This document shows positions 14,289 to 51,989 of a stretch of DNA of 64,000 nt, piece by piece. The DNA comes from Bacteroidota bacterium (lineage in GTDB: Bacteria > Bacteroidota > Ignavibacteria > UBA10030 > UBA6906), in the NCBI GenBank assembly GCA_030835135.1, contig JAUQWO010000076.1, positions 141,102 through 205,101 on the forward strand, given 5' to 3'. Both the position numbers and the translations under genes were made by a program. The notes below the pieces were generated by a model. That model was not told where the DNA came from and did not search any database. It worked only from the letters and a program-made list of their open reading frames with translations. Numbering within the stretch: position 1 is the first letter of the stretch; each line of letters opens with the position of its first letter.

Positions 14289-14356
14289 GGGACACTTCCG
14301 GAATGGAGAAAACTGGTGTTTCAGAATATACATAAAGAAAGGTCTCGGGGAAACTG

Positions 14357-19875: not shown

Positions 19876-20646
19876 TCATTTCCACCGTTCGCATCCGGTG
19901 AAGGCCATATGGACCCCCTCCTGATAGCGCGGCCGAGGGCGGTAGTCGTTGACGCCCGGGACGGCCTTCCCGCGCAGGAGGAAGGGTGCCGCCGCCTCGG
20001 GCTTCAGGAGACGCGTGCTGGTCGGGATGTAGCGGATGGTCAGACCCATGCGCCAGAGGTCGGAGGTGTTCGCCTCCGAGCCGTGGATAATGTTGGGATG
20101 GTGGATCGACAGATCTCCTGCTTTCAGGATCACATCGATGGCCTTCGCTTCATCCACGAACTCATCCCTCATCGCGGAACCCAGCACGTTGTCCACGTCC
20201 TGACGCTCCTCGTGCTGCTCGAGGACCAGATGATGGGTGCGCGGGATGACGCGCATGCATCCGTTCGCGGGGAGGGAATCGGATACGGCGAGCCACATGG
20301 TGATCACGTTCATCGGTTCGATGGGCCAGTAGCTGCCGTCCTGATGCCAGAGCACCGCCTGCCCCGTGCGGGGCGGTTTGCAGATGTAGTGTGTCGCGAA
20401 CAGTGCGATGTCGGGTCCGACGAACTGCTGCGCAATGTCCAGGAGCCGGTCGTCGCTGATGAGCCGGACCCAGAACGGGTCGTTCCACGCGAGATGGGCG
20501 TGGAGGTGTTCCGGCCGGACGCCGGGGTTCTTTTCGAGGAGCCAGTGGACATGCCGTTGGGCCTCTTCGACGAGTGCACCATCGATGGCCTCGCGGACGA
20601 CAACGTAGCCTTCCCGATCGTAGATCTCCTTCAGGTCCTTCTGCAT
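19876..20646 (-). CDS. Phytanoyl-CoA dioxygenase (PhyH)-family Fe(II)/2-oxoglutarate-dependent oxygenase
   Basis: 256 aa, cytoplasmic. The iron-binding triad is present: H101 and D103 in 'LWHQDGSYW', and H188 in 'PNIIHGSEAN'. R205 in 'MGLTIRYIP' is suited to bind 2-oxoglutarate. The start is the ATG at 20646 with GGAGAT upstream. It heads the PhyH-symporter-GH51 unit. PhyH proteins of this size hydroxylate or demethylate small molecules; beside sugar genes the substrate may be a modified (for example O-methylated) sugar or sugar acid, which is inference. A second PhyH gene of different sequence lies at 37773-38564 on the other arm of the locus. Confidence 0.88.
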   Translation of the reverse strand: MQKDLKEIYDREGYVVVREAIDGALVEEAQRHVHWLLEKNPGVRPEHLHAHLAWNDPFWVRLISDDRLLDIAQQFVGPDIALFATHYICKPPRTGQAVLWHQDGSYWPIEPMNVITMWLAVSDSLPANGCMRVIPRTHHLVLEQHEERQDVDNVLGSAMRDEFVDEAKAIDVILKAGDLSIHHPNIIHGSEANTSDLWRMGLTIRYIPTSTRLLKPEAAAPFLLRGKAVPGVNDYRPRPRYQEGVHMAFTGCERWK

Positions 20647-20723
20647 CGCGGATCTCCAATGATGTGCAAGAGGGGACAGCGCGGTGGGCTTCCTACAAGG
20701 GGAGATACGGGAAATTGTGCTCG

Positions 20724-20742
20724 AATGCAACGGCGTTTCAGA
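20724..20742. promoter_or_regulatory. Third, weaker KdgR-box-like operator
   Basis: The 19-mer AATGCAACGGCGTTTCAGA matches the gamma-proteobacterial KdgR box as I remember it (AATGAAACANTGTTTCATT) at 13 of 18 defined positions. It shares AAC...GTTTCA with the two stronger sites in this window. It lies about 80 bp upstream of the PhyH start and overlaps a larger inverted repeat. A weak minus-strand promoter (TTGCAT, 17 bp, TATCTC) would have its -35 box inside the site. Confidence 0.45.
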
Positions 20743-20759
20743 TGAGAAACGCCGTTGCA
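20726..20759. repeat. Perfect 14-bp inverted repeat with a 6-nt loop
   Basis: The arm TGCAACGGCGTTTC (20726-20739) and its exact reverse complement (20746-20759) flank AGATGA. It sits in the 126-bp gap between the AGE epimerase stop and the PhyH start. Neither side has a U-tract, so a standard intrinsic terminator is unlikely. It may be an operator, or a structured boundary that separates the two minus-strand units. Confidence 0.85.
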
Positions 20760-20772
20760 CAGGTGGAAAGCC

Positions 20773-21951
20773 TCACCGGGAGCGCGGAGCGGTCGGGTCA
20801 AGCATCTGCATGCACATGAACAGACAGCGGGGGACGTGGTAGCACCCCTTCCATTTGCTGCCCTTCAGCGGGAGGGAGACCTCGCCACGGCGGTTGAGAT
20901 ACCCGAACCATTCGCCGTGCGCGGGATCGGGATAGTGCGACCAGGTATAGTCGTGCACCTTCTCGAACCACGCGCGGCAGTCCGTCCGCCCCAGGCGTGT
21001 CTCTGCCATGAGCAGTGCGACGAGCGTTTCGATGTGCGCCCACCAGAACTTCTGGTCCCACTCGAGCTTCTCGCACGGCTTCCCGCGGGCATCGAGGAAT
21101 CCGAAGATACCGCCGTATTCCTTGTCCCACGAGAACTCAAGGATCCGCAGCAGGGAATCCGCCGCACGGTGGGCGAGCGCAGTGTCACCCCGCCCGAGCG
21201 CGGCATCCATGAGGAACCACATGCCCTCCAGGCCATGTCCCGGGTTCAGCAACCGGCCTTCGAAGGTATCGGGGTGGCTGCCGTCCGGTGCTACGTTCTC
21301 ATACACCAGGCCGCTCTCCCTGTCGATGAACAGCGTCGCGATATCGTTCATCCACCGCGTGGTGTTCTCTTCGAACAGGTCTGCCGGAAGCAGCCACTGG
21401 AGTTCGTGCGCGACGTGGAGGAACATCATCGGGAACGCGAACGAGCGGAGCGGCCGCGTACCGGGATATGCCTTGGTGTAGACCCCCTTCGGGAATGATT
21501 CCCGGCGGAGCATGTTGCGGTAGGCGCGGTGGGCGATGTCCTTCGCTTCTTCATCCCCGGACGCCAGCGCGTACTGGCTGAAGCCGACCGCCGCGAAGCA
21601 TTCGCTGAAGACATTGTAGGGTTGGACGAGCGGTGCGCCGTTGCGGTCCAGCGAAAAGTACCACTCGCCGTTCGCATCACGCCCGTGCGCACGGAGAAAG
21701 TCCGCGCCGTGCTTTGCCATCGCCAGCCATTCCGGCCGCTTCTCCAGGCGGTTGTACAGCATGGCATACGTCCACGTCTGACGCCCCTGCAGCCAGATGA
21801 ACTTGTCCGTGTCGTAGACGTTCCCCATGCGGTCGAGACACGTGAAGAAGCCACCCTGCGGGTCGCGCGAATGACGGTCCCAGAAAGGCAGGACATCATC
21901 GAGCAACGCGGAACGGTACTGCTGATACAGCGTGTGGTTTCCGGGCAGCAT
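20773..21951 (-). CDS. N-acylglucosamine 2-epimerase (AGE) family sugar epimerase/isomerase
   Basis: 392 aa, the usual length for AGE-family (alpha/alpha)6 barrels. It acts on the C2 carbon of a hexose, hexosamine or disaccharide. Typical blocks are seen: 'DKFIWLQGRQTWTYAMLYN' near 49-67, 'PYNVFSECFAAVGFSQYA' near 111-128, 'NPGHGLEGMWFLMDAA' and a C-terminal 'HGEWFGYLNRRGE'. No signal peptide, so cytoplasmic. The start is 3 bp after the stop of the Gfo/Idh/MocA gene. In this setting it could interconvert glucose/mannose-type or cellobiose-type sugars. The exact substrate is not decided by the sequence. Confidence 0.9.
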   Translation of the reverse strand: MLPGNHTLYQQYRSALLDDVLPFWDRHSRDPQGGFFTCLDRMGNVYDTDKFIWLQGRQTWTYAMLYNRLEKRPEWLAMAKHGADFLRAHGRDANGEWYFSLDRNGAPLVQPYNVFSECFAAVGFSQYALASGDEEAKDIAHRAYRNMLRRESFPKGVYTKAYPGTRPLRSFAFPMMFLHVAHELQWLLPADLFEENTTRWMNDIATLFIDRESGLVYENVAPDGSHPDTFEGRLLNPGHGLEGMWFLMDAALGRGDTALAHRAADSLLRILEFSWDKEYGGIFGFLDARGKPCEKLEWDQKFWWAHIETLVALLMAETRLGRTDCRAWFEKVHDYTWSHYPDPAHGEWFGYLNRRGEVSLPLKGSKWKGCYHVPRCLFMCMQMLDPTAPRSR

Positions 21952-23151: not shown

Positions 23152-23601
23152 TCACTGCGTTGGTGGTTCCGTACACTGTGCGCGGGCGCCGGCGGGGAGC
23201 GGCGGTGCTTCCTGTCCGGCGTGTGGGAGTGTTCCGCTGAGCTCCTGTCGCCAGTGGGCGACGTCGCCGCCGGGGGCGTAGCAGTAGATCATCCGCATCG
23301 GAGTGAACCCGATGTTCGTGATCTGGTGGAAGACCCCGGGGGGGATGTACGCGGCCTGGCCGGTCTTCAGGACCTGTCGTTCCTCGCCGAGACACATTTC
23401 GGCGGTCCCCTCTATAATATAATACACTTCTTCCTGTTCCTGATTATGCCATGGGACCTGCCCGCCGTTCGGGTCAAGGGTGACGTGCCCCATGGCGAAG
23501 TTCATGGCCTGGATGGGGGAGACGCCCCCGACAAGGTTCTGGGTCCGGCGCCGGGCCGGGTAGCGGCGTCCTTCGATGACACCCAGGTCTGCTATGATCA
23601 T
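23152..23601 (-). CDS. Single-domain cupin protein
   Basis: 149 aa. A double-stranded beta-helix is indicated by 'VPWHNQEQEEVYYIIEGTAEM' (cupin motif 1: H, Q, E ligands) and 'GQAAYIPPGVFHQITNIG' (motif 2, with the PxG and the last ligand H). It lacks a signal peptide. Such small cupins in sugar loci are often sugar isomerases or lyases, or metal-dependent sensors. A GGAGAG ribosome site precedes the ATG. It is co-directional and tightly spaced with the isomerase (31 bp) and the Gfo/Idh/MocA gene (27 bp). The C-terminal ~20 residues are proline-rich and probably disordered. Confidence 0.85.
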   Translation of the reverse strand: MIIADLGVIEGRRYPARRRTQNLVGGVSPIQAMNFAMGHVTLDPNGGQVPWHNQEQEEVYYIIEGTAEMCLGEERQVLKTGQAAYIPPGVFHQITNIGFTPMRMIYCYAPGGDVAHWRQELSGTLPHAGQEAPPLPAGARAQCTEPPTQ

Positions 23602-24512: not shown

Positions 24513-27155
24513 TTAGGTGTACCTGAGATGAAGTGTGTGCGGAGTGCCCGACGGGAACCGGTACCGGCGCAGGTTTCCGTCCACCGGACCTTCGGCCTGC
24601 GGGAACGCGATCTGTTCCCGTTCATCGAGGATGAGATCGGCGGTGCAGCCGCGGGGGACTTCCAACCGGAGGGTACGCTCACCGCGGGTGCCCGTACACG
24701 CGAATGCGATCGGACCCTGCGGCGTGGGGACCGTCACCGCGACATCGGCAAGGTCCGCGGGTTGCGGCCTCACCGTGCACTGTGTGAATCCGGGTGCCGT
24801 CGGTCGGATGCCCGCGATGCCCTGGGTCAGGAGGTAGAGCGGCACGACGGCGCAGTGGCTCCAGAGGTCGCCACTGTCGGGCGCTGCCGTCCAGTTCTCA
24901 AAGATGGTGTTGTTCTCGATCACCGACGGCATCGTTGCCCAGCGCTCGCGGAAGTCGCGAATGATCACATCCGTACGTCCGCCGCGGGCGAGCGCCCAGT
25001 AGCGCCAGCATGCGTTCGCCGGGTAGGAGATCCCCATGTGCGGTGGCGGCGCTGCGAGCGCATCGATCGCGGGACGGTTCCGGCCACCGGGGCACTGGTC
25101 GAAGATCACGGCCGTGGCGAGTGACCGGTCGCAGAGGCGCGGCGCTTCGCCGGCGCCAAGCCAGGGGCGGTTGACGATGAAGAGTCCCTCGGCGTCGCTC
25201 CAGAATGCACGGACGGCAGCCTCGATGATCGACGCCGCGAAGCCTTCGGCGAAGTCCGCCCAATCGGTATGGTCCAGCACGCGTGCAACGGGGGCGAAGG
25301 CGTGGCGGAGCATTGCCGCCGCATAGAGGTTGAAGGCGCACTGCTTGTGCAGCGGTTTCCCCGTCTCGTACGCGACATGGTCGATCCATACCGCCGGCGT
25401 GCCGAGGTTGGTCACCGGTATCAGACCGTCTTCCTGTCGGATCCTGTGGAGATACCGGACGAAGCGCTGATACCGGACGAACGGTTCACGGACGGCGGCG
25501 GCATCGGCGGTGTACAGATGATGGTGGAAGATATCGAATCCGAACCCGACGCTATGGTCGAGCAGCGGGCCCCATGGCGTCAGATCGAGGTGTCGTTCCA
25601 TCACGCGGGCGAGACGGTCGTACGCCGGCCAGCAATCGAAGAAGTATCCGTCGAGCATCAACCCCTGACCGAACGTCGCGATGAAGCGTGCGCCGGGACG
25701 GGGTTCGCCGAAGGTCATGTACGCCGCGTGGAGCTGGTGTGCGCCGTCGCCGCTGTACTGCTGGCGCTCGCGGCCCATCCCATCCACCGCCGTCTCCTGC
25801 GTGCTGTTGTACAGCGTGTTCACGCAGGCATCCAGGAGCCGCTGCAGGGCAGGCTCGCCGACGGAAGCGTGGGGCTCCACGGGCCAGGGGAAGACGCGCC
25901 GGAGCATCCCGACGTTCCGGATCGTGACGGTTCCTGCGGTGCCGCGAATATGCAGCTGGATCCATCGCGCAGCTTCATAGTCGAGCGTCTGGAACGTCTG
26001 GACGCCACCGGCGCAGATGAACCGTGCCCAGGCGTGGAAGTGGGTGTTCAGCAACGCCGGCCCGCCGGGGGTGTGTCCTTCCTGCACCATCAGTTCGACG
26101 ATCGTGCCGGGAGGGGCATCGATGGTGAAGAAGGGGAATCCGACATGCTGATCGTGCAGGGCGAACGTCAGAGCGCGTGCCGTTGTGCCGTCGAGTGCGA
26201 TGGTCCACGATCCCGCGGCGCTGCCCGTCACCGTCAGTGGTGTGGCTGTGAACGCGTTCGGCGGGAGGACGTCGAAATACTCTTCCGCGGGCCGGTGCCA
26301 GTCGATGGTGTATGCTTCCACGAGTCGTTCGACCGCGACCGGATGTTCGCGCAGCAGGGGAATGCTGCGGGGGATGAGGCACGATCCGTCCCGGGTCGCC
26401 CGGGTATCGAGCAGGTAGTCGGGATAGGACGAGCATGAAGGGGGAAGGGACGGGGGGCAGTCCACGAGCATCGCCTGCACCCACCTGCCATCCGGCGTGA
26501 AGCCGTTCGTGTCCCAGCCGTACGGGTGTTTGCGCGCGTCGAACATCTCCTGGAAGGCGCGGAGGTACCAGCGTTTGTAGTTGCCGGCTGGCCAGGCGGT
26601 GCTGAGATGGGCGTGCCAGGAGTCGTCGGAGACGAGGCTGGTGGAGTTCCCGGTGGCGGTTGTGGTGGTCAGGGTGAAGATGAACCCGGGTTTGCCGACG
26701 GGGTGTGTCCCATCGCCCCCTCCATAATAGAGGACGGTCACGCCGATGGTATGGTCGCCCGGCGTGAGGAGGCGCTGCAGTTCCAGCGGATCCACTTCCA
26801 TTCTGCGGGGATCCGCCGGTGCCGGTCCCCACTGGACGCGTCTGCCGTCGATCGTGAGGAGGTACCGGCTATCGGCCGCGATCCAGCCGTTGGCTGATCG
26901 CAGGGGAGCCGGGATATGGATGGTGTGCCGGAACAGAACGACGGTATTGGGGAGCGTCCGTTCGGACGGATACCAGATCCAGTGTGCCGGCGCAAGGTCG
27001 AGCCGGAGCGGTGCATCCGGGAGGGACAGCGGTGAAAGGTCAGGCATCGGATCAGAGGGTTGAAGGCTGTGAGCGTGTGCGACTGGTACCGGGAGAAGGC
27101 CGAGGAGAGCACTGCCTCCGGCGGCCTGTGTCAGAAATCGTCGTCGTGTGGTCAT
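24513..27155 (-). CDS. Tat-exported GH78-type alpha-L-rhamnosidase
   Basis: 880 aa from the ATG at 27155. A twin-arginine signal (MTTRRRFLTQ) followed by a hydrophobic stretch points to Tat export in folded form. N-terminal beta domains (about 50-430) precede an (alpha/alpha)6 catalytic barrel. The block DGMGRERQQYSGD (458-470) matches the GH78 acidic motif (usually D-G-x-x-R-[DE]-R-x-x-[WY]-x-G-D). A C-terminal beta-sandwich ends the protein. The enzyme should release alpha-L-rhamnose from rhamnogalacturonan, glycosides or similar glycans. It is the first gene of the left arm, transcribed from a strong promoter (27184-27212) with a leader of only about 22 nt. Confidence 0.88.
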   Translation of the reverse strand: MTTRRRFLTQAAGGSALLGLLPVPVAHAHSLQPSDPMPDLSPLSLPDAPLRLDLAPAHWIWYPSERTLPNTVVLFRHTIHIPAPLRSANGWIAADSRYLLTIDGRRVQWGPAPADPRRMEVDPLELQRLLTPGDHTIGVTVLYYGGGDGTHPVGKPGFIFTLTTTTATGNSTSLVSDDSWHAHLSTAWPAGNYKRWYLRAFQEMFDARKHPYGWDTNGFTPDGRWVQAMLVDCPPSLPPSCSSYPDYLLDTRATRDGSCLIPRSIPLLREHPVAVERLVEAYTIDWHRPAEEYFDVLPPNAFTATPLTVTGSAAGSWTIALDGTTARALTFALHDQHVGFPFFTIDAPPGTIVELMVQEGHTPGGPALLNTHFHAWARFICAGGVQTFQTLDYEAARWIQLHIRGTAGTVTIRNVGMLRRVFPWPVEPHASVGEPALQRLLDACVNTLYNSTQETAVDGMGRERQQYSGDGAHQLHAAYMTFGEPRPGARFIATFGQGLMLDGYFFDCWPAYDRLARVMERHLDLTPWGPLLDHSVGFGFDIFHHHLYTADAAAVREPFVRYQRFVRYLHRIRQEDGLIPVTNLGTPAVWIDHVAYETGKPLHKQCAFNLYAAAMLRHAFAPVARVLDHTDWADFAEGFAASIIEAAVRAFWSDAEGLFIVNRPWLGAGEAPRLCDRSLATAVIFDQCPGGRNRPAIDALAAPPPHMGISYPANACWRYWALARGGRTDVIIRDFRERWATMPSVIENNTIFENWTAAPDSGDLWSHCAVVPLYLLTQGIAGIRPTAPGFTQCTVRPQPADLADVAVTVPTPQGPIAFACTGTRGERTLRLEVPRGCTADLILDEREQIAFPQAEGPVDGNLRRYRFPSGTPHTLHLRYT

Positions 27156-27264: not shown

Positions 27265-27293
27265 TTGACAATACAGCGCGTCCTTCGTAATAT
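27265..27293 (+). promoter_or_regulatory. Strong sigma70-like promoter for the receptor triad
   Basis: TTGACA (27265-27270), exactly 17 bp, then TAATAT (27288-27293), near-consensus at both boxes. Transcription would begin around 27300, inside the operator-like site that follows. This is the best promoter match in the window. Confidence 0.82.
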
Positions 27294-27299
27294 ACCCCT

Positions 27300-27318
27300 G
27301 ATAAAACGCTGTTTCACA
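27300..27318. promoter_or_regulatory. KdgR-box-like operator over the transcription start of the receptor triad
   Basis: GATAAAACGCTGTTTCACA contains half-sites TAAAAC and GTTTCA separated by 3 nt, the layout of the KdgR box of IclR-family repressors. It shares 15 of 16 core positions (ATAAAACGyTGTTTCA) with the site in front of the IclR gene at 47050-47068. Its position directly after the -10 box suits repression. Confidence 0.72.
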
Positions 27319-27732
27319 GATGAACCACTCCACGGTAGCGGCATTCCCTCGCACGACCGACGTGTCCTGAGCACCCGCGGTTCATCTGTTGTCGTTTCCC
27401 GATGACGTGATTTCCCATAGTTCTCAATTCCTTCCTCAATCAACTTCGAACGGGTGATGCGTGCCCCGAAAGGAGGTCCTCTTCACGGACAGTACACGCT
27501 GCGTTACTGCCACGTGCACTCACATTCCACTATACGATCATTGTGTCAACGGCCGCTGCGCGACGGGCATCGTGCACGGTCTGGTGTTTCTCACGTTGGT
27601 AGGTAGAAGAGCATGACGCGCAAGAGCCCATCGGGGTGTTTCCCACATGAAGTCCTCTCACCGCTCACCTGCGAAGTGGGCAGTCCTGCGAGAGAGCCTT
27701 CATTCAATACCATACTCCAAAGGAGGAGCGAC
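27319..27732 (+). other. Long untranslated leader of the receptor gene
   Basis: About 414 nt lie between the operator and the receptor start. I see no convincing gene. An in-frame upstream ATG at 27613 would add 40 residues that do not look like part of the protein and would hide the signal peptide. The leader contains a full Shine-Dalgarno-like GAAAGGAGG (near 27469-27476) with no start codon at the right distance. A second real one, AAAGGAGG at 27719-27726, belongs to the ATG at 27733. No known riboswitch is recognisable. Confidence 0.5.
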
Positions 27733-30687
27733 ATGAGGCAACCATGGTACACGCTATTCGCCGTTCTCTTGGTGACGCTTGTTCTCGCGACAAGTGTCAC
27801 GCTTGCGGGGAACGGGAAGATCACAGGATCAGTAATGGGTCCGGACGGGGCAGGTTTGGCAGGAGCCAACGTCGTGCTCGTCGGAACCTCTATGGGGGCA
27901 TCTGCTGATGTCAATGGACGGTTCAATGTGTTGAACGTTCCGCCGGGCACCTATCGTATCCGCGCGGCGGCGGTCGGCTTCACCCCACAGGTCATCACCG
28001 ATGTCCGCGTGGGTTCTGATCAGATCGTCACGCTGAAGTTCGATCTCCAGACCGAAGCAGTCGGTCTGGCCGAGGTTGTGATCCAGGCCGAGCGGCCGGT
28101 GGTGGACAAGAGCCAGACGAGTGCACGGTCGCGTTTCTCGGGAGATGATATCGTCTCCCTGCCGGGCGCGGATCTGCAGGCGATGGTCGCCACGTCGGCG
28201 AGCACCTACAAGGGGTTCGTGCGCGGTGGACGCGTCTTTGAAACGAAGACCCTGGTCGATGGTATCGACGTGACCGACCAGTATGCTGCGTGGTATGCTG
28301 ACGTTGCGGGTGGTTCGACGGCCTATCTGACCTACAACGCCGTCACGCGCACGCGTGATGCGCAGAATTCTTCTCTGGTCGAATTGAGCAGGGCCTCTGT
28401 TGAAGAAGCGAACGTGCTGACCGGTGGTGTCGGTTCCGATTACAGCAGCGCGAGCGCCGGTATCATCTCCTACAACCTGCGCGAAGGCCGCGGTGCGTGG
28501 ACGGTCCGTGCGGAAGCACGCATGGGCGCCCAGGGATACAAGAACCTTGGTCCCGATGCGTACAGCGACGACACGACCTACTTCCGTATCCGCGACAACT
28601 ACGCGAGGAGTGCTGCCGCGACGGACCGCGACAAGGCGGCCCGGTTCACCTACTATCGTGACAAGTATTCCTACAGCAAGAAATTCCCCGACATGACCGT
28701 CGACCTCTCGGCGGGTGGTTCGATCACCGAAGACCTGGGTCTGTATCTGACCGGTCGCTGGTACGACTCGCACGGGTTCCTCCCGAACGAGCATACCCGC
28801 AAGTTGAACATGTCGGCGAAAGCGAACTACAACCTGACGCCGTCCATGAAGCTGAACGGTACGTTCCTTCTGGAAGACCGTGGGAACCTGTTCGGCTGGA
28901 AGAACACCGGGTACTCGGATGACTTCCGGTATTTCCTCGAGGGCGTGCCCACGTGGACCGGGACGAACGTCGTGGGAAGCCTGAAGCTGACGCATGTGCT
29001 TTCGCCGGAGACCTACTACGAAGTGCAGGCCAGCATCGTGAACGATCATTCGCTCCGTGGATTCTCCGATGACGACAATGACGGCATCGTGGAGATCGGC
29101 GAGAATGGCGCGTATCTCGAGTGGGCAGACACCGCACAGGTGAACCGCTACATGGCGAATGCCGGCAACGCGCAGATGAACAAATTCTTCTCGCCGACGC
29201 CGAGGAACGAAACCGCCAGCGAGAACACCGTGATCATGTCCGGCGCCGCGAACCTGAAGATCGCCCGCCCGGGTATCTACTATGAGAACTTCGTCAACCA
29301 GGTGATCACGGCGAAGGCCGATATGACCTCGCAGGTGGACGTGCACCATCAGCTGCGTGGTGGTCTGCAGGCCCGCTTCCACAACCTGGACATGACCCGC
29401 CGCGCGGGCTACATCGGCGGCGTGTTCTCGACGTACAAGAACTACAGTGAAGAGATTTGGAACGTCAAGCCGTCCGAGTACAGTGCCTATGTGCAGGACC
29501 GCATGGAGTATGCCGGGTTGATCATCAACCTCGGTCTGCGTCTGGATGGTCTGAGCCTCGGTGCGGGCGACTTTGCGAACTTCTTCGCGCCGTTCACGGA
29601 CACGAAGGATGCCGCGGGTGGCAGCGTGCGCGTGCCGGTGCGTGGTGCGGATGCCGACATCAAGTGGTTCTTCTCGCCCCGCCTGGGCGTGTCGCATCCC
29701 ATCAGCGACGACGCGGCGATGTATTTCTCCTTCTCGCGCCAGCAGCAGTCGCAGCCGTTCTCCAAGCTGTACACCAACTATGCCGACTTCGGCAATCCGT
29801 CGCTGCCGGTGGAAGTGCGCACGAACCAGGACCCGATCCAGTCCACGAACTATGATCTGGGTATCCAGTGGGCATTCCTCAATGGCTACGGTGTCGATAT
29901 CAACGCGTTCTACAAGGACATCCAGAGCTACGGCGGAACGGGTCTCGTGATCACCCCGCTGGCCCCCTGGAGGAGCTACAACATCAATACCGAATTCGGG
30001 TATGCCGATTCCCGCGGTGTTGAGCTCACGGTCAAGAAGATGCTCATGCCGGTGACGGATTTCCTCGCGATCGGCGGACGCATCGCGTATGCCTACAGCT
30101 ATGTGAAGCAGTCGGTCTATGCAGGCGGCAACCAGACGTCCTATTCGACGGTCGGCGGCGACAGTGCCAAGTATGCCGGTTCGTTGCCGTGGACGGACAT
30201 CAAGTATTGGAACACCATCGAGCGTAACGTGCTCGGCGGCAACAGCACCCTGCTTGGTGGGTACGACCGCACGCACCGTTTGACGTACAACCTCGTCCTC
30301 CGGTTCCCGGAAGAGATCACGCTGTCCAGCATCGGTACGTTCCAGAGCGGCTTCTTCTATCCGCTGACCCTGGGCGATCCGCGCAAGCGCGAACTCGGCC
30401 AGTCGCCGATGACGAAGCAGATCGATTTCCGTCTTGAGAAAGCCTTCACGCTCCCCGGTCTCGGCCGCGTGGCCGCGTACGTGGATGTGCTGAATGCGTT
30501 CGGATGGGAGAACATCATTGCGTACAATAGCACCAACGTTGGTCAGATCGCGTGGGAACGGACCGGTGATCCGACCGGTGGTCCGACGATCAACCGTCCC
30601 ATTGGTATCTCGTCTGCCGGTAACGACGGCTCCATGATCTATGATGTTCCGAGGCAGATCTTCTTTGGCCTGACGGTCAATTTCTAG
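27733..30687 (+). CDS. TonB-dependent outer-membrane receptor (SusC/CirA-like) with carboxypeptidase-D-like N-terminal domain
   Basis: 984 aa. The ATG at 27733 has a perfect ribosome site (AAAGGAGG) and begins a signal peptide (MRQPWYTLF...SVTLA). Residues about 28-110 are a carboxypeptidase-regulatory-like beta-sandwich ('GSVMGPDGAGLAGANVVLVG', 'VPPGTYRIRAAAVGF'). The plug domain follows ('TLVDGIDVTDQY'), then a long beta-barrel rich in aromatic and glycine residues that ends in a terminal aromatic, 'GLTVNF'. It should import a substrate through the outer membrane using TonB energy. It is first in a three-gene unit with the secreted-tail protein (54-bp gap) and a PorV-like protein. No SusD-type lipoprotein follows, unlike canonical Bacteroidota glycan loci. 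Confidence 0.93.
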   Translation: MRQPWYTLFAVLLVTLVLATSVTLAGNGKITGSVMGPDGAGLAGANVVLVGTSMGASADVNGRFNVLNVPPGTYRIRAAAVGFTPQVITDVRVGSDQIVTLKFDLQTEAVGLAEVVIQAERPVVDKSQTSARSRFSGDDIVSLPGADLQAMVATSASTYKGFVRGGRVFETKTLVDGIDVTDQYAAWYADVAGGSTAYLTYNAVTRTRDAQNSSLVELSRASVEEANVLTGGVGSDYSSASAGIISYNLREGRGAWTVRAEARMGAQGYKNLGPDAYSDDTTYFRIRDNYARSAAATDRDKAARFTYYRDKYSYSKKFPDMTVDLSAGGSITEDLGLYLTGRWYDSHGFLPNEHTRKLNMSAKANYNLTPSMKLNGTFLLEDRGNLFGWKNTGYSDDFRYFLEGVPTWTGTNVVGSLKLTHVLSPETYYEVQASIVNDHSLRGFSDDDNDGIVEIGENGAYLEWADTAQVNRYMANAGNAQMNKFFSPTPRNETASENTVIMSGAANLKIARPGIYYENFVNQVITAKADMTSQVDVHHQLRGGLQARFHNLDMTRRAGYIGGVFSTYKNYSEEIWNVKPSEYSAYVQDRMEYAGLIINLGLRLDGLSLGAGDFANFFAPFTDTKDAAGGSVRVPVRGADADIKWFFSPRLGVSHPISDDAAMYFSFSRQQQSQPFSKLYTNYADFGNPSLPVEVRTNQDPIQSTNYDLGIQWAFLNGYGVDINAFYKDIQSYGGTGLVITPLAPWRSYNINTEFGYADSRGVELTVKKMLMPVTDFLAIGGRIAYAYSYVKQSVYAGGNQTSYSTVGGDSAKYAGSLPWTDIKYWNTIERNVLGGNSTLLGGYDRTHRLTYNLVLRFPEEITLSSIGTFQSGFFYPLTLGDPRKRELGQSPMTKQIDFRLEKAFTLPGLGRVAAYVDVLNAFGWENIIAYNSTNVGQIAWERTGDPTGGPTINRPIGISSAGNDGSMIYDVPRQIFFGLTVNF

Positions 30688-30741: not shown

Positions 30742-33228
30742 ATGAATACATTTCGAAGCCAACAACGGACTGCCGGTGCCCTGGTTCTCCTGGTGACCGT
30801 GCTGCTGTTGACAGGAGCCAGTGTGGCGGTCCTCGCTCAGAACAAGGTGTCTTCGACACTCGATCCTGCGGCCGGCAAGGGTATGCTGGTTGCCGGTGAG
30901 CTGTGGGATTCGTACATGCCGCTGAACAAGGGACCATTCTACAGCGAAGCGACGGTCGATCTTCTCCGTGTCTTCCGCATCGGGAATTTCGATCGCCAGT
31001 GGTCCTCCCCGACCCACATGTGGCCGGGCGGATGGAATTTCGGTGCGTTCTGGAACAAGAACATGGAATTCACCGTGTGGGATCCGGATGCAACGTTCAA
31101 TCCCGCGACCATCGGCGGTGTGGCCAATCCGTCATACTTCGCGGCAGCGGGTGCGAACTATGCCTACCTGAGCTATCCGAACCTGTCACGCTCAAAGACC
31201 ATCCCGGGTGTCGGCAATGCCCAGCGGGACTATGCGCGCGAGACGAAGTGGGTGGATGCCCAGAAGCGTCACCACGTGATGTATGAGGCCGCCCATCCGA
31301 CGACCGTTGGCGTGGATGTGAAGTACCGGATCTTCCAGTATTCGTTGAACTGGAACAACATGAACGACTTCATCCTCGTCGAGCTCACGTTCACGAACAC
31401 CGGTGTCGTGGATATGAATGCCGACGGCGTCGCCGAGAAGACCAACCATGTGATCGAAGGTCTGGCGATGTCGCTGCACGGCGAATATATGTCAGCGTAT
31501 TCTCTGAACGAAGGTGCCGGCCGCGGCAACGCATTCTTTGCGCAGCGTGCGATCGGGTACATGGGTGACAACGATGCGAGCGGCGCACCCTGGGCCATGC
31601 ATGTTGCATTCCCTGGTGAGAGCGGCCCGGGTCTCAAGGATATGGGTATCTTCGCAGGCCCGCAGCGTTATGCGGCTGATGTGTGGAGCGCCTGGACGTG
31701 CCTGGGTGCGAAAGATGCGACCGGCACCGATTTCCCGACGCGGTTCGGTACCCCGGCAGTGGGTACGGGCGCGGAGCGCGGTTGGTACATGACCGCCGGC
31801 GTCGGTAAGGGCTTCAGCATCGGCAATGGCGATCCGAAGGACGGCTTCATTGGCGCCATGGGCGCGTACTTCATCGATGGCGGCAAGTCGCTGGACAAGA
31901 CCAAGTTCAATCTGGCCGCGAATCCGAATCTCTTCGACGCAGGGAGCACGGCGGGTGATCTCCGGACGTTCGTGTTGAAATCCTCCGGCCGCACCGCACC
32001 GTCGGGCGATCTGAAGTCCACGAACGGGTTCGTGGTGAATCCGTATGAACCCAGCTGGACGAAGGGCTACACCGCGGCGAACAACTTCGACGGCGACGGC
32101 TTCCTGGGCGTTGGTCCGTTCAAGCTGGAAGTGAACCAGAGCGTCACGATCACCTTCGCCATCGCCGGCGGTTATCGCCTCCAGGGCGTCGCGAATGCGA
32201 TCGGTGCCGCACGCTGGGTCTATCAGAACAAGATCGATGCCGACTACAATCTCCCGACGGCACTCGAGTATCCTGCCGTGCCGGAAATAAAGGTCGACAA
32301 TACGTTGACGAAGTCCATCCGCGTGCGCTGGGACAACCGTGCAGAGACCGGCGACTTCGCGGGCTACAAGGTGTACCGTGCTGGTCTGTCGGAGCAGGTG
32401 GACTGGCTCGCGACCGGTATGCGTGGCCTGGATGAGTACTGGCGCAACATGACGCCGGGTCCGACCCCTGCCAGCTTGCTGAAGCCGATCAACCCGAACT
32501 TCACGGCGCAGTCGTTCGTCGCCGGACGCAATGGCGTGCCCGATGGTTGGGGACCCTACACGCTGATGGCCGTCATTCCGGCCGCCAGCAAGGGGACGTA
32601 TGCCGATGCTTCCGCTCCCGGTTACAACTATTCATGGGAAGACAAGGCCGTCGACGTTGGCTTCAAGTACTGGTACTACGTTGCGGCCTATACGAGCACC
32701 GGCCGTACGATGCCCGGCCTGGTGTCGTTCAGCAACCAGACCACCACGGACTTCGTCGAGACGTCCAACATCAACAGGAACGGCGCGAGCGGTCTGTGGA
32801 TGAACACGTATCCGTTCGCCACGCTGAATACCTTCTTCCCGAAGACCTCCGCGGGCCAGAAGGACATCGGCGCAGGCTTCATCGTGAAGTCCGCCCTTGC
32901 GAATCCGGCAGACCTCGTCTCCGGGAAGACGAAGGTCGTCGTGACGCCGAACCCGTACAAGAAGAAGGCTTTGTTCGACAACGCCACCCTGGCGTATGAC
33001 CACAAGGTGACGTTCATGAATCTGCCCGGCAGGGCGAAGATCACGATCCTTGATGTCTCCGGCCAGGTCGTCGATGTCATCGATTTCGCATCGACCGATC
33101 CGAACAACGGAAGCACCTTCTGGGATATGTTCTCCAAGGATGGTGTTGAAGTGGCCAGCGGCCTCTATATCTACGTCGTGGAGTATGATGGTGGCCAGCA
33201 GGTCGGCTACTTCTCGATCCTGCGCTAA
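30742..33228 (+). CDS. Large secreted protein with FlgD-Ig/type IX secretion-like C-terminal tail, partner of the receptor
   Basis: 828 aa with a signal peptide (about 1-33). Residues ~35-510 form a domain I do not recognise, rich in Trp, Tyr and Gly. Around 515-560 there is a fibronectin-III-like strand pattern ('SIRVRWDNRAETGDFAGYKVYRAG'). The last ~95 residues are a FlgD-Ig or Por-secretion-like tail ('VVVTPNPYKKK', 'ITILDVSGQVVDVIDF', 'GLYIYVVEYDGG'), the kind of signal that sends proteins across the outer membrane by type IX secretion. Ribosome site AAAGGAAG. Placed between the receptor and a PorV-like protein, it may be the surface-exposed substrate-binding partner that replaces SusD; this role is inferred from position only. 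Confidence 0.8.
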   Translation: MNTFRSQQRTAGALVLLVTVLLLTGASVAVLAQNKVSSTLDPAAGKGMLVAGELWDSYMPLNKGPFYSEATVDLLRVFRIGNFDRQWSSPTHMWPGGWNFGAFWNKNMEFTVWDPDATFNPATIGGVANPSYFAAAGANYAYLSYPNLSRSKTIPGVGNAQRDYARETKWVDAQKRHHVMYEAAHPTTVGVDVKYRIFQYSLNWNNMNDFILVELTFTNTGVVDMNADGVAEKTNHVIEGLAMSLHGEYMSAYSLNEGAGRGNAFFAQRAIGYMGDNDASGAPWAMHVAFPGESGPGLKDMGIFAGPQRYAADVWSAWTCLGAKDATGTDFPTRFGTPAVGTGAERGWYMTAGVGKGFSIGNGDPKDGFIGAMGAYFIDGGKSLDKTKFNLAANPNLFDAGSTAGDLRTFVLKSSGRTAPSGDLKSTNGFVVNPYEPSWTKGYTAANNFDGDGFLGVGPFKLEVNQSVTITFAIAGGYRLQGVANAIGAARWVYQNKIDADYNLPTALEYPAVPEIKVDNTLTKSIRVRWDNRAETGDFAGYKVYRAGLSEQVDWLATGMRGLDEYWRNMTPGPTPASLLKPINPNFTAQSFVAGRNGVPDGWGPYTLMAVIPAASKGTYADASAPGYNYSWEDKAVDVGFKYWYYVAAYTSTGRTMPGLVSFSNQTTTDFVETSNINRNGASGLWMNTYPFATLNTFFPKTSAGQKDIGAGFIVKSALANPADLVSGKTKVVVTPNPYKKKALFDNATLAYDHKVTFMNLPGRAKITILDVSGQVVDVIDFASTDPNNGSTFWDMFSKDGVEVASGLYIYVVEYDGGQQVGYFSILR

Positions 33229-33282: not shown

Positions 33283-34269
33283 ATGAAATCAATAAGGATC
33301 CTGTTGACATGCCTGTTTGCGGTGTTGCTGGTGGCCCAATCGGGCATCGCGCAGAACCGCAAGGCTGGCTTGACCGGGGCGGCCTTCCTGAAGGTCGGCG
33401 TCGGGGCGCGCAATGTCGCCCTCGGTAGTGCAGTGACGGCCCTCCCGGGTGATGTAACGCAAATGTTCTACAATCCTGCCGGCATCGCTCTGAAGGATCA
33501 GACCATGCAGGCATCGTTCACGTACAACAAGTGGATCGCGGATATCGGTCACAATGCCGCCGCCGTGTCGTACAATATCGAAGGGGTCGGCACCGTCGGT
33601 GTCGGCTTCATTTCCTTCGGTCTGTCCGGCATCGAAGCGTCACGTGACAAGACCGATGATGTGACCTCGCCGACCTACGACTATCGTGACATGGCGTATC
33701 AGGTGTCGTTCTCCCGCTATGTCGTGGATCAGCTCGCCCTCGGTATCACCGTGAAGGGGATCAACCAGTCGATCGATGGTGTCTCCGCCTCGGCCATTGC
33801 CCTGGACTTCGGTTCGGTCTATCACATCGGCGTCCTGGACTGGACGATCGGTGCGCGGTTCAATAACCTCGGGTCGGATCTGCTGTACTATGATATCGCA
33901 TCCGCCCTCCCGATGCAGTTCAGCATCGGCACGGCAATCAAACCCTACAAGAATGAGATGATGGGTGTGATGGTTGCCCTGGACGCCGTGAAGCCGCAGG
34001 ACGGACCGCAGTATGTGTACGGCGGTCTGGAACTGAGCTTCATGGATATGGTCGCGCTGCGTGGCGGGTACAAGTTCAACTACTCCGGGACCGACGAGGT
34101 CACCGGGACCGGCTCCAACGCGGTCATCTCGACGATCGAAGGGGTCTCGGCCGGTGCCGGTCTCCGTACGAACTTCGAGGGCTATGCCATCGGCTTCGAC
34201 TACTCGTTCACCCAGATGGATCTGCTGAAAGCAGCGCATCGCTTCACGCTCACAATCGGTATGAAGTAA
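33283..34269 (+). CDS. PorV/PorQ-family outer-membrane beta-barrel protein
   Basis: 328 aa with a signal peptide ending near 'SGIAQ'. The N-terminal block 'GAAFLKVGVGARNVALGSAVTAL' followed by 'MFYNPAGIALKDQTMQASF' is typical of PorV/PorQ and UPF0164 proteins, which form OmpX/FadL-like barrels. In type IX secretion PorV shuttles substrates to the attachment machinery, and related copies are often encoded beside TonB receptors in Ignavibacteria-like genomes. GAGG lies 8 bp before the ATG. As third gene of the triad it likely helps secrete or display the 828-residue protein. A hairpin follows its stop. Confidence 0.88.
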   Translation: MKSIRILLTCLFAVLLVAQSGIAQNRKAGLTGAAFLKVGVGARNVALGSAVTALPGDVTQMFYNPAGIALKDQTMQASFTYNKWIADIGHNAAAVSYNIEGVGTVGVGFISFGLSGIEASRDKTDDVTSPTYDYRDMAYQVSFSRYVVDQLALGITVKGINQSIDGVSASAIALDFGSVYHIGVLDWTIGARFNNLGSDLLYYDIASALPMQFSIGTAIKPYKNEMMGVMVALDAVKPQDGPQYVYGGLELSFMDMVALRGGYKFNYSGTDEVTGTGSNAVISTIEGVSAGAGLRTNFEGYAIGFDYSFTQMDLLKAAHRFTLTIGMK

Positions 34270-34485: not shown

Positions 34486-35508
34486 ATGCTCCCGCTTCTT
34501 CCTACGACCGTCATCGGCAGCTACTCCTTTCCCTCCTGGCTTGGCAAGGTCAGGGAATTCGGCACCGCCGGCACGCTGACCCCCCAGCAGGCCGCCGAGG
34601 CCCACGATGCCGCCGTGCGCGCCGTCATCCATGACCAGGAACTCGCCGGCGTGGATATCATCACCGATGGCGAGATCCGCCGCGAGACCATGGTGAATTT
34701 CTTCTCCATGCGGATCCATGGCTTCGACATGAGCGGGAAGATGAAAGCCATCGGGAATCTCGATCCGTCCATCCAGATGCTCGACCCCGTGGTGCGCGAG
34801 AAGGTGCGCCGCAAGCAGGGATTGGGCATGGACGAGCACTTCCGCTTCCTGCAGGCCAACGCCCGCCATGCAACCAAGGTCTGTGTCACCGGTCCGCAGA
34901 TGCTCGCCAAACGGGCCACGAATGAATTCTATCCGTCGGACAAGGAACTGATCTTCGATCTCACGGACATCCTGAACGAAGAGCTCCGTGGGCTCGTCGT
35001 CGCGGGGTGCACCTTCATTCAGATCGATGAGCCGATCTGGGTGGGCTATCCGCAGGATATGCCCTGGCTCGTGGAATCGTTCAACCGGCTCATTGCGGGC
35101 GTCAAGGCGAAGATCGCCCTGCATGTCTGCTACGGCAATTACCAGTTGAAGAAACTGTTCACCGGCCAGTATGCCGAGCTGTTCCCGGCGATCCTCGATA
35201 CCAATGCCGACCAGATCAGTCTGGAATTCGCGGTGTCCGACGGTGTCGGACTCGAACTGTTCAAGCAGTACCCGACCACCAAAGAGGTGGTGGTGGGTGT
35301 GATCGATGTGAAGGATGAGGCGGTGGAAACGCCGGCGACCGTGGCCAGCCGCATCCGCCATGCCCTGACATTCATCCCGGCGGAGAAGATGTTCATCAGT
35401 CCGGACTGCGGCATGAAGTTCATGCCGCGCGACCGGGCGTTCGCGAAACTCAAAGCAATGGTCGACGGGGCAGCGATCGTCCGCGCCGAACTCACCGGCA
35501 CACGGTAA
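34486..35508 (+). CDS. MetE C-terminal-like (cobalamin-independent methionine synthase superfamily) zinc methyltransferase
   Basis: 340 aa, the size of the single catalytic domain rather than full MetE (~750 aa). It starts with the family-typical 'LLPTTVIGSYSFP'. The zinc ligands match MetE: H213 and C215 in 'ALHVCYGNY', E247 in 'ISLEFAV' and C308 in 'SPDCGMKF'. 'IQIDEP' (179-183) is the conserved strand motif. Stand-alone proteins of this kind transfer a methyl group to a thiol, but the methyl donor is often unknown because the folate-binding N-terminal half is absent. Here it opens the right-arm gene series after the receptor triad. It could recycle methyl groups released from methylated sugars, which is speculation. 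Confidence 0.85.
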   Translation: MLPLLPTTVIGSYSFPSWLGKVREFGTAGTLTPQQAAEAHDAAVRAVIHDQELAGVDIITDGEIRRETMVNFFSMRIHGFDMSGKMKAIGNLDPSIQMLDPVVREKVRRKQGLGMDEHFRFLQANARHATKVCVTGPQMLAKRATNEFYPSDKELIFDLTDILNEELRGLVVAGCTFIQIDEPIWVGYPQDMPWLVESFNRLIAGVKAKIALHVCYGNYQLKKLFTGQYAELFPAILDTNADQISLEFAVSDGVGLELFKQYPTTKEVVVGVIDVKDEAVETPATVASRIRHALTFIPAEKMFISPDCGMKFMPRDRAFAKLKAMVDGAAIVRAELTGTR

Positions 35509-35538: not shown

Positions 35539-37725
35539 GTGATAGCACCACAGCAGTCCATCAGCAGCGCACTGGCGGGGACCAGCATGCTCCTCCGTCG
35601 TGCGCACGGTCCGGCCGTCGAGCACGCCGCGGCGGAGCTCTGGACCCGTACGCTCGGACGCGAGATCACTATCGGAGAGGCCACCGGTGCGCCGGCGGAT
35701 CGGCCCGGTGCGCTGCTCTTCGATGCCGGCTCCGGAAGCGCCGATGCATGCGCGTTGTACTTCCGGATGGACGCCAGCGGCGCCGGCGTCATCCGGGCCG
35801 CGCATCCGCGCTTTCTCTATTTCCTCACCGGTCACGTCCTGAAGCACCGGTATACGATCCCGGCCGATGCCGCCGCAGCGGGGATCACGCTCACCCCGTC
35901 CTTCCCCTGGTGCCGGAACCTCAGCGACCTTCTTGTCGGCAGTCAGCGTACTGCGCGGGGGTTTTCGCCCGCGGCCTATTGTGAGCAGATCGCTCTGCAG
36001 GGATTCACCCATGTCTCCGTGAATGCGCTCGGTGTTCCGCATCCGTTCGAGACCGGACCCGCCGGCGATGTGTACGGGGCCTTCTACGACTACAGCCCCG
36101 ATCTCGATCAGTTCGTCGACTCGTCGTTGATCAGAGGATATTATCCGGCCCAGTATCTCGCCGCGAATCTGACGGCCCTGCGCAACCGCGCGGCGCTCGC
36201 GCGCCGCTATGGCCTCGTGCCCGGCCTCCATATCAACTCCCCGCGGTCGATGCCGGAAGAATTCTGGGAGAAGAACGCCTATCTCCGCGGAGCGCGCATC
36301 GATCACCCGCGCGAAAGCTTCCGTCCGCGGTATACCCTGGCCATGTCCCATCCGGTCGTCCAGGAACACTATCGCGAACTCCTTCGCCATCTCCTGGCCG
36401 AAGTGCCCGATCTGGGATTCATTCATATCTGGACCAACGACAGCGGGGCAGGGTTCGAGTATGTCACGTCCCTGTATGCCGGCCGGAATGGCGGACCCTA
36501 TCTCCTCCGTGAATGGAGCTCGCACGAAGCGATCGCGCGGGCGGCTGCGGCGAATGTGCTGTCGTACTATCACCTGTTGCTCGACGAGGCACGGCGCGTG
36601 AACCCGGCGTTCCGTGTCGTGTGCGACCTCGCTCCGTTCTATGAGGAACGGCAGTACATCGTGCCCGGACTGGGTGGGGGTCTGGATGCCGGTGCGTTCG
36701 GCTCGTTCGAAGCGCAGGGGGCTGCGATCACCCGTCGCGATCTGGAAGAACGCGGCGCGTGGGACCACCGGAAGCTCGAGATGAGTCACCTGCATCTTCC
36801 GGGCCTGCCCTTTCCCGGACTCCTGTACGATCTGCTCACGGCAGCGATCGCTGCAAAGGCGAACGCGGTCCTCGGTGCGACCGCGGCACGCTCCCTGGCG
36901 CCGTACGATGTGAACGGTGAGGTGCTGGCAGCACTGCAAGCGGATCCGGCACGGCCGCGGGATGAGATCCTGCGCACGGCCGCAACCGCCATGGCGGGAG
37001 AAGACCGGGCCGAGGATCTCGTCCGCTTCTGGCTGCTCGCCGACGCTGCCGTACGCGCGTATCCGGCGGATATCCCCCTGGGGACATTCGCGTTCGCGTG
37101 GTTCAGGCTGTGGGTCCGGCCGTTCGTTCCGGACATCGATGCCATCCCGGAAGGAGAACGCCGGTACTACGAGCGCTTCCTGCTCGCGACGTTCAACAAC
37201 CCTGCGCGCATCGACCTGAATGCGGACATGCTCTGGCACTATATGACCGTCGAGCAAGCCGCCGAACGGCGCGACCGGATCGATACCCTGGTCGTGCCGC
37301 CCCTGGACCGCGCGATCGGCGGCCTCCGGGTCGTGTGTGCGACAGCAGCGCCCGGTGTATTCCCCGATCTCCTCGACCGGTTGCTGACCGCCCGGACGTA
37401 CTTCATCACCATGAGGAACACGATGGCGTGGACCTCGGCGGTCCATGGGTACGGTGGCGCAGCTACGTCGGACGAGCGTGCCCGCTGTCGCCGGGAGAGT
37501 GTGGCGATGGTCGACGCCGAATGCGCCAATGCGCGCGATCTGTTGGCGCTGTGGGAACGGTCTCCGCGGCATCTGTTCCCCGTATCGGGAACCGCGGAGT
37601 CTCTGCACATCTACGGGGAGAACTTCGGCGAGCTGCTGCGCAAGAAGATCGCGCTGATGGAGCGGCACCGGGAGGATGAGCCGCGGGTGGACGGAAGGTA
37701 CATGTGGAGACGGAAGGAAAATTGA
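35539..37725 (+). CDS. Putative cytoplasmic TIM-barrel glycoside hydrolase, family not identified
   Basis: 728 aa, GTG start, no signal peptide. The first ~115 residues look like the small alpha/beta domain placed before the barrel in GH20/GH67-type enzymes ('AAHPRFLYFLTGHVLKHRY'). A TIM barrel follows: 'AYCEQIALQGFTHVSVNALG', 'GLVPGLHINSPRSMP', 'DLGFIHIWTNDSGAGFEYV' and 'FRVVCDLAPFYEERQYIV'. The last ~250 residues are helical. Acidic residues suited to catalysis sit at strand ends (WTNDSG, FYEER), but I cannot name a catalytic pair. The gene lies 30 bp after the MetE-like gene. Alternative: a non-catalytic carbohydrate-processing protein. Confidence 0.68.
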   Translation: MIAPQQSISSALAGTSMLLRRAHGPAVEHAAAELWTRTLGREITIGEATGAPADRPGALLFDAGSGSADACALYFRMDASGAGVIRAAHPRFLYFLTGHVLKHRYTIPADAAAAGITLTPSFPWCRNLSDLLVGSQRTARGFSPAAYCEQIALQGFTHVSVNALGVPHPFETGPAGDVYGAFYDYSPDLDQFVDSSLIRGYYPAQYLAANLTALRNRAALARRYGLVPGLHINSPRSMPEEFWEKNAYLRGARIDHPRESFRPRYTLAMSHPVVQEHYRELLRHLLAEVPDLGFIHIWTNDSGAGFEYVTSLYAGRNGGPYLLREWSSHEAIARAAAANVLSYYHLLLDEARRVNPAFRVVCDLAPFYEERQYIVPGLGGGLDAGAFGSFEAQGAAITRRDLEERGAWDHRKLEMSHLHLPGLPFPGLLYDLLTAAIAAKANAVLGATAARSLAPYDVNGEVLAALQADPARPRDEILRTAATAMAGEDRAEDLVRFWLLADAAVRAYPADIPLGTFAFAWFRLWVRPFVPDIDAIPEGERRYYERFLLATFNNPARIDLNADMLWHYMTVEQAAERRDRIDTLVVPPLDRAIGGLRVVCATAAPGVFPDLLDRLLTARTYFITMRNTMAWTSAVHGYGGAATSDERARCRRESVAMVDAECANARDLLALWERSPRHLFPVSGTAESLHIYGENFGELLRKKIALMERHREDEPRVDGRYMWRRKEN

Positions 37726-37772: not shown

Positions 37773-38564
37773 ATGTACGGCGGAGAGTACCGGCTCACGG
37801 ATGACCAGATCAGGTTCTATGAAGAGAATGGATTCGTACAGCTGCACAATGTGCTGACGGCGGAGGAGGTGCAGACGCTGCGCGCCGCACTCGACGTGGC
37901 GATCGCCGACCGCGACCGCCTGAAGGCGAACTGGGGCCCGCGTGAGGATGAAGAGTACGCCAAGGTGTTCCTGCAAATGGTGAATGTGTGGGAGCGGTAT
38001 GCGGCGATCGAAGAGTATGTGCTCGGGTCCCGCATCGGCGGCATCGCCCGGCAGCTCACCCGTTCCTCCGCGGTGCGGCTCTGGCATGATCACGCGCTGA
38101 TCAAGTATCCCAAGGACAGCAAGGCCACGGCGTGGCATCAGGACAAAGTCTACTGGCCGATGCGGGAGAACACCGCGCTCTCGTGCTGGATGGCGCTGGA
38201 CGATGTGACGGTGGACAAGGGGTGCATGTGGTTCATCCCCGGCTCCCACAAGCTCGGACCCCTCGACCCGGTGGACCTCGGCAAGGCCGGCGATGAGGAC
38301 CTCCTGGCGTTGTTGCCCATCGGTGGACGGGAGAGTGTGCGGCCGTTCATCGCGGAGATGAAGGCCGGCAGCTGCACGTTCCACCACGGACTCACCTTCC
38401 ACTACGCCGGCCCGAACGTCACCGATGGACCCCGACGGGCGATGGTCACGATCTATATGCCGGCAGGTACCCATTACGCGCCGTTGGCACATCTCATCGG
38501 GGACCGCGGGAACCTCACGGATGGCGAGGAGTTCCATGGTCCGCTCTTTCCTATCATTCGGTGA
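37773..38564 (+). CDS. PhyH-family Fe(II)/2-oxoglutarate-dependent dioxygenase (second copy)
   Basis: 263 aa from the ATG at 37773, with a strong GGAGGAGA site. The iron ligands are H122 and D124 in 'AWHQDKVYWPM' and H210 in 'HHGLTFHYAGPN'. 'DKGCMWFIPGSHKLGPL' is the conserved central block. No signal peptide. It is clearly a different subfamily from the copy at 19876-20646, with little similarity outside the motifs. It sits between the TIM-barrel protein and a six-hairpin glycosidase whose frame begins at or just after its stop. Likely substrate: a small carbohydrate-derived molecule; this rests on context only. Confidence 0.88.
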   Translation: MYGGEYRLTDDQIRFYEENGFVQLHNVLTAEEVQTLRAALDVAIADRDRLKANWGPREDEEYAKVFLQMVNVWERYAAIEEYVLGSRIGGIARQLTRSSAVRLWHDHALIKYPKDSKATAWHQDKVYWPMRENTALSCWMALDDVTVDKGCMWFIPGSHKLGPLDPVDLGKAGDEDLLALLPIGGRESVRPFIAEMKAGSCTFHHGLTFHYAGPNVTDGPRRAMVTIYMPAGTHYAPLAHLIGDRGNLTDGEEFHGPLFPIIR

Positions 38565-38572
38565 ATCCTCTC

Positions 38573-47016: not shown

Positions 47017-47045
47017 TTGCGATTCCCGTGGGAAGGTAGTACATT
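47017..47045 (+). promoter_or_regulatory. Promoter of the IclR-isomerase unit
   Basis: TTGCGA (47017-47022), 17 bp, TACATT (47040-47045). The operator-like site begins 5 bp downstream of the -10 box, the same arrangement as at the receptor promoter. Confidence 0.62.
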
Positions 47046-47049
47046 TACT

Positions 47050-47068
47050 AATAAAACGTTGTTTCATT
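47050..47068. promoter_or_regulatory. KdgR-box-like operator in front of the IclR regulator
   Basis: AATAAAACGTTGTTTCATT agrees with the KdgR box as I remember it (AATGAAACANTGTTTCATT) at 16 of 18 defined positions. It lies 19 bp before the IclR start codon, at the predicted transcription start, so the regulator probably represses itself. Confidence 0.75.
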
Positions 47069-47086
47069 GACTAAACATCCTTGGTC

Positions 47087-51987: not shown

Positions 51988-51989
51988 CC

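Follow-up and report, generated by a model that had tools for sequence, protein, structure and literature searches.

Predicted three-box IclR operators at a glycan-uptake locus and at corrinoid methyltransferase genes of Ignavibacteria-related bacteria

Introduction

Regulators of IclR group 2 recognise the family-wide motif type TGRAACA-N1-2-TGTTYCA, and members from Bacteroidetes/Chlorobi have already been placed in this group (Suvorova and Gelfand 2021, PMC8222616). Operators consisting of three boxes are known for PcaU, PobR and HmgR and were described for 32 orthologous groups (PMC8222616). Core methionine synthases (core-MetE) use methylcobalamin as their methyl donor (PMC7005905, PMC7857596). 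Our literature search found no work joining Ignavibacteri- with IclR, nothing on IclR control of corrinoid demethylation and no description of an IclR-run coupling of glycan breakdown with B12-dependent demethylation.

Here we analysed a 64-kb stretch of DNA (the window) from a 4.9-Mb genome that is related to Ignavibacteria/Bacteroidetes, in agreement with its original placement in the FCB group. Two sites in the window, one in front of a TonB-receptor operon and one in front of an iclR gene, had been likened to the KdgR box. With the group 2 operators they share the half-sites, the 3-bp spacing of the first two boxes and the location near the start of the regulator's own gene; they differ by flanks that extend to CTAATaAAAC...GTTTTATTAG and by a third box. 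Three boxes of alternating direction are also found for PcaU, PobR and HmgR, and the PcaR/PcaU model gave the best NCBIfam score for the regulator studied here. In contrast to these systems, the protein stays well below the PcaR/PcaU cut-off, and the predicted regulon deals with glycans and the transfer of methyl groups instead of aromatics. KdgR of gamma-proteobacteria resembles the present system in its family, in the palindrome AAAC-n3-GTTT and in having a target gene of uronate-glycan lyase fold, but the two regulators are not orthologous and the predicted targets include no canonical gene of the KDG pathway. From methyl transfer by MtaABC and RACo the genes for MtaB-like, MtaA-like, two-domain corrinoid and RACo proteins are all present; unlike there, the predicted IclR control is shared with a TonB glycan-uptake operon and the methyl acceptor looks like homocysteine. 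For a glycan locus of Ignavibacteria-related bacteria that is conserved but uncharacterised, the analysis supplies a predicted regulator, its operator and a list of targets. The link of this locus to methyl transfer is new and is the most interesting part. The tie to corrinoid methyltransferases makes an orphan gene set a testable pathway.

Results

The sequence ATAAAACG[C/T]TGTTTCA was present at 27301 and at 47051, in both cases just 3' of a -10 box. Positions 27301-27316 read ATAAAACGCTGTTTCA and positions 47051-47066 read ATAAAACGTTGTTTCA, such that 15 of 16 core positions are identical, as originally stated. With up to three mismatches allowed, these 16-mers were the only matches in the window, where 0.13 were expected; as a control for this count, two matches were obtained in none of 100 shuffles. 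Across the genome, which was scanned by pattern rather than by matrix, the two sites were the sole exact matches and the remainder carried at least two mismatches. Other genome matches with two or three mismatches were set aside, most of them lying within reading frames.

Both window promoters are sigma70-like. The promoter of the TonB-receptor operon (27265-27293, plus strand), as read from the sequence, consists of a -35 box TTGACA (27265-27270) and a -10 box TAATAT (27288-27293) separated by 17 bp; that of iclR (47017-47045, plus strand) consists of TTGCGA (47017-47022) and TACATT (47040-47045) with the same separation. The position of both sites just behind a sigma70-like -10 box, part of the original prediction, was thus borne out. 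Orthologous receptor operators in relatives are preceded by an equal TTGACA-17-TAATAT/TATAAT/TATACT layout. The first site lies inside a divergent gap between a rhamnosidase-domain gene, which starts at 27155 on the minus strand, and the TonB-linked receptor.

Each site extends into three boxes. The receptor operator (27298-27326, plus strand) comprises AAAAC (27303-27307), GTTTC (27311-27315) and GAACC (27322-27326), and the iclR operator (47048-47076, plus strand) comprises AAAAC (47053-47057), GTTTC (47061-47065) and TAAAC (47072-47076). The half-sites alternate in direction, AAAAC-n3-GTTYY-n6-RAAAC, with the third box six bases past the second. All three boxes were common to an alignment of 39 operators from 28 iclR and 11 receptor promoters. 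In these 39 operators the RAAC/GTTY half-sites follow the group 2 consensus, which separates them by 3-4 bp, and the third box stands at GTT-10-AAC from the second, one base short of the published GTT-11-AAC and outside the GTT-11/12-AAC given for three-box operators (PMC8222616).

For scoring we built a matrix from the sites of families f5 and f6 only, i.e. from taxonomic families other than that of the host. The iclR site (31.3) and the receptor site (13.0) ranked first and second in the window, the next place scoring 4.8. Eight simulated genomes contained on average 0.75 places scoring at least 12.9 and none scoring at least 23; scores like that of the receptor site are thus expected about 0.75 times per simulated genome and about 0.01 times per window. 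The iclR site is significant by matrix score alone. The predicted receptor site at 27298 is weak by this measure, and the case for it comes from its positional conservation, which is strong. Three-box matches on contigs C38 and C45 were set aside at scores of 1.3 and 0.5, and a match with one mismatch at C65:69542 (score 5.4), which precedes a TTGACA instead of following a -10 box, was not used.

The original prediction had staked itself on conservation in relatives, and this was found at both promoters. The iclR site occurred in 28 genomes of three families, among them all 13 IclR-bearing genomes of the host's family (up to three mismatches), where it takes the form of a palindrome like CTAATAAAACrnyGTTTTATTAG. 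In families f5 and f6 the form before iclR is CTAATTAAACnnnATTCAATTAG, usually behind TTGACA-17-TATACT, and nearly all matches with at most two mismatches precede iclR. The eight family members lacking IclR had no site, apart from one single-strand match with three mismatches. A stricter three-box pattern gave 17 matches in these 21 genomes, all in IclR-bearing ones, and its reversed control gave one. Twelve genomes, again of three families, carried the receptor site before the orthologous operon: the window genome, G002, G003, G010, G015, G016, G018, G019 and G020, together with G038 of family f5 and G049 and G066 of family f6. Receptor homologues in the IclR-less genomes G012 and G017, as well as a second homologue in G002, had no operator. 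A search of the proposed kind thus gave no other exact match of the 16-mer in the genome and recurrent sites in IclR-bearing relatives. In the class-level relative G100 an operator follows TTGACA-17-TATATT of a symporter-TIM barrel-iclR operon. Three genomes of genus g7 carry an extra GAAAC-n4-GTTTC-n6-GAAAC element with a 4-bp first spacing that faces a divergent TIM-barrel/cupin operon.

The regulator is encoded at 47087-47869 on the plus strand. Both domains of the family, HTH_IclR and IclR_C, were found in the protein (PF09339, 4.6e-12; PF01614, 1e-36; both above cut-off), and it is the only PF01614/IclR-family protein of the genome. Orthologues occurred in 33 of 150 relatives with E values of 1e-60 or better; those with names are 'Ignavibacteriae' and 'Bacteroidetes' metagenome genomes. 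Since it is the sole IclR-family protein, since the presence of the site follows that of the iclR gene and since the sites are conserved at both promoters, we consider the pairing of the predicted operators with this regulator highly probable.

The glycan locus around the two operators has a gene order that three families largely keep, apart from some genes lost or inserted: receptor, 828-aa protein, PorV, short MetE, a protein of unknown function, (PhyH), rhamnosidase-like protein, another unknown, aminotransferase, symporter, LarA, IclR, TIM barrel, heparinase-like protein, aminotransferase and amidohydrolase. Upstream, the rhamnosidase-domain gene (24513-27155, minus strand) keeps its divergent arrangement in relatives. 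The genes of this locus described next are on the plus strand. The TonB-linked SusC/RagA-like outer-membrane protein spans 27733-30687, its start being set by relatives (the ORF opens at 27613); the leader before it (27300-27733) measures about 430 bases, and about 200 in G015. It is followed in conserved order by the 828-aa protein (30742-33228) and a PorV/PorQ-family protein (33283-34269). The short MetE-type protein (34486-35508) has the catalytic domain only, is 62-82% identical in relatives and resembles core methionine synthases (PMC7005905, PMC7857596). The product of 38561-40177 has an alpha-L-rhamnosidase (GH78)-like fold (model pLDDT 66; best PDB matches rhamnosidases); sequence searches of the PDB gave only a marginal match for it and nothing for 35539-37725. 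A sodium:solute symporter (43807-45729) and an ORF for a LarA-type 2-hydroxyacid racemase (45654-47000) precede iclR.

Second in the iclR operon is the gene of a xylose-isomerase-like TIM-barrel protein (47866-48675), which adjoins iclR in most relatives that were read. Next comes a heparinase II/III-like protein with the predicted fold of uronate-glycan lyases and thus a candidate lyase (48728-50746; weak twin-arginine signal match), whose gene is found within the iclR operon in several genera. It matched the oligoalginate lyase Atu3025 by sequence (6.9e-17) and, as a model (pLDDT 75), the Atu3025 alginate lyase in Foldseek (1.3e-26); the model also resembles glycosaminoglycan and heparin lyases and dermatan-sulfate epimerase. 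Its His423, invariant in eight orthologues and a putative catalytic residue, corresponds to His531 of Atu3025 by the alignment offset. A class-III aminotransferase (50743-51987) and an amidohydrolase (51981-53612) follow in conserved order. Elsewhere in the window, the product of 12921-14624 belongs to glycoside hydrolase family 47 (Pfam 2.9e-112), and the relative G015 has a copy of it with 58% identity. This family is best known from eukaryotic mannosidases.

Outside the window, two further three-box sites precede corrinoid methyltransferase genes; counting the receptor operon with its short MetE, this brings to three the separate operator-linked operons that carry methyl-transfer genes. The site at C46:243993-244022 (L163, minus strand) lies 39 kb beyond the window end and has a matrix score of 23.0, a value not attained in the eight simulated genomes. 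Its operon encodes an MtaA-like protein, a two-domain corrinoid protein, a homocysteine S-methyltransferase, DUF1638, RACo and a second UroD-family protein. Its counterpart in G001, G002, G010 and G016 occupies the orthologous position, 14 bp upstream of a TTGATT/TTGCTT-17-CATCTT promoter; in G015, and weakly in G020, a site of this type lies behind a -10-like box. In several of these relatives individual boxes are degenerate. The other site, C31:203530-203560 (L160, score 12.9), is directly upstream of the -35 box (TTGCAT-18-TATATT) of an MtaB-like gene (PF12176, 521 bits). It repeats just before TTGCAT in G001 and G002, i.e. in three genomes of one genus in total, and mtaB orthologues of other genera were without it. 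This putative mtaB site has a chance-level matrix score and draws its support from positional conservation.

Discussion

The original prediction took the sites for KdgR boxes, which would imply a true KdgR regulon that senses 2-keto-3-deoxygluconate and controls pectin/uronate catabolism as in gamma-proteobacteria. Some observations fit this reading: the KdgR consensus RWWGAAACGNCGTTTCAKKA agrees with the sites at about 15 and about 17 of 20 positions, most of its core positions being matched at both, the recognition helices have a KS(S/T) motif in common and a lyase-fold protein is encoded inside the iclR operon. The identity of the regulator speaks against it. The protein scored 147.2 bits with the KdgR model against a cut-off of 275 (PcaR/PcaU: 162 against 285; BhcR: 155 against 350). 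By BLAST it is about equally distant from the E. coli proteins KdgR (28% identity, 113 bits), IclR (29%, 115 bits), AllR (27%, 111 bits) and XynR (26%), and in the tree the Ignavibacteria-related proteins form a separate group (support 93/96) with long branches. On profile score and tree the name KdgR is thus wrong for this protein. The operators point the same way, having a third box and a family-wide consensus of their own in which A or T takes the place of the G of KdgR. The likeness to the KdgR box is common to part of the IclR family, and such a box alone is no ground for naming a uronate regulon.

Of the proposed uronate-type regulon a part is kept. Profile scans of the operator-linked operons found no canonical gene for the breakdown of KDG or uronates, and PF04962 (KduI/IolB) genes lie on other contigs without operators. 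The PF04962 match on C13 was rejected as uronate evidence: its neighbours look inositol-type, suggesting IolB rather than KduI. The cupin at 23152-23601 was dropped as a KdgF candidate, since no KdgF entry was named among its PDB matches. Taken together, a true KdgR regulon is very improbable. The uronate idea survives in another form, namely in the heparinase-II/III-fold protein of the iclR operon. The proposal of an operator that the TonB-receptor operon has in common with iclR, the latter being autoregulated, is likewise supported, as predicted operators conserved in relatives.

Our preferred explanation, which we hold to be probable as a whole, is that both sites are predicted operators of the IclR protein 47087-47869, which would regulate the glycan uptake/lyase locus and the methyltransferase genes. 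At iclR and at the receptor the half-sites of the predicted operators start 2-4 bp behind the -10 box, such that a bound IclR dimer or tetramer would sit over the start of transcription and keep the promoter shut until released by an effector. With the operator covering the transcription start, repression is the simplest reading; iclR would then be autoregulated and the receptor operon co-regulated with it. We regard repression at these two promoters as likely. The putative C46 and C31 operators are placed upstream of the -35 box, a position typical of activation. PcaU-type IclR proteins activate from upstream of -35. By this analogy activation at the methyltransferase promoters is plausible; operators so placed could also act in repression.

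That the same sites might reflect chance resemblance or a common core-promoter element without any regulator would fit the low score of the receptor site taken by itself, but three boxes are kept at both promoters in three families and are missing in IclR-less genomes, and we regard this reading as practically negligible. Hardly more credence can be given to a regulator of another family. The pairing with IclR does come from sequence comparison, yet the half-sites and the first spacing are IclR-family motifs (PMC8222616) and the sites track the iclR gene, the only one of its family in the genome. A more serious alternative accepts the IclR protein and restricts the effector and pathway to a uronate-lyase product, KDG-like or an unsaturated uronate, with the methyltransferase genes being incidental or due to chance. 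The heparinase-II/III-fold gene in the iclR operon of several genera and the chance-level score of the mtaB site fit this reading. Against it stand the C46 site, whose score was absent from the simulations and which is repeated at the orthologous place, and the fact that the two outlying sites fall on partner genes of one corrinoid system. We consider this restricted reading rather unlikely.

Returning to the regulation of both gene sets by one IclR protein, such a regulon would allow the cell to import its substrate, cut it by a lyase and strip it of methyl groups. By gene content the substrate may be a glycan of plants or algae that is methylated and contains uronate and rhamnose; that the regulon is for uptake, cutting and demethylation of a methylated uronate-containing glycan has, in our estimate, a chance approaching even. 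Tentatively, and with somewhat less than even confidence, we propose that the one IclR protein acts as repressor at the TonB uptake/lyase locus and as activator at the corrinoid genes, and in this way couples the breakdown of the methylated uronate glycan with a demethylation that depends on B12 and uses homocysteine as the methyl acceptor.

Several other operator-like sequences were seen. The extra operator-like element of genus g7 described above lies at L079 (about 2050-2090), L083 (about 190-235) and L180. In G003 (C191, L191, 1497-1526) the operator-like TAAAACTACGTTTTGCCAGTGAAAC stands where an Ig-domain protein begins that weakly matches DUF4962, and homologues of window genes are absent from the vicinity of CTAATAGAACAGGGTTCTATCAG at G016:C113:9765. 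Within the window, 20726-20759 is a perfect 14-bp inverted repeat, TGCAACGGCGTTTC-AGATGA-GAAACGCCGTTGCA, located between the minus-strand genes 19876-20760 and 20773-21951. Its core GTTTC-n6-GAAAC equals operator boxes two and three, and the repeat could be a hairpin or an additional operator.
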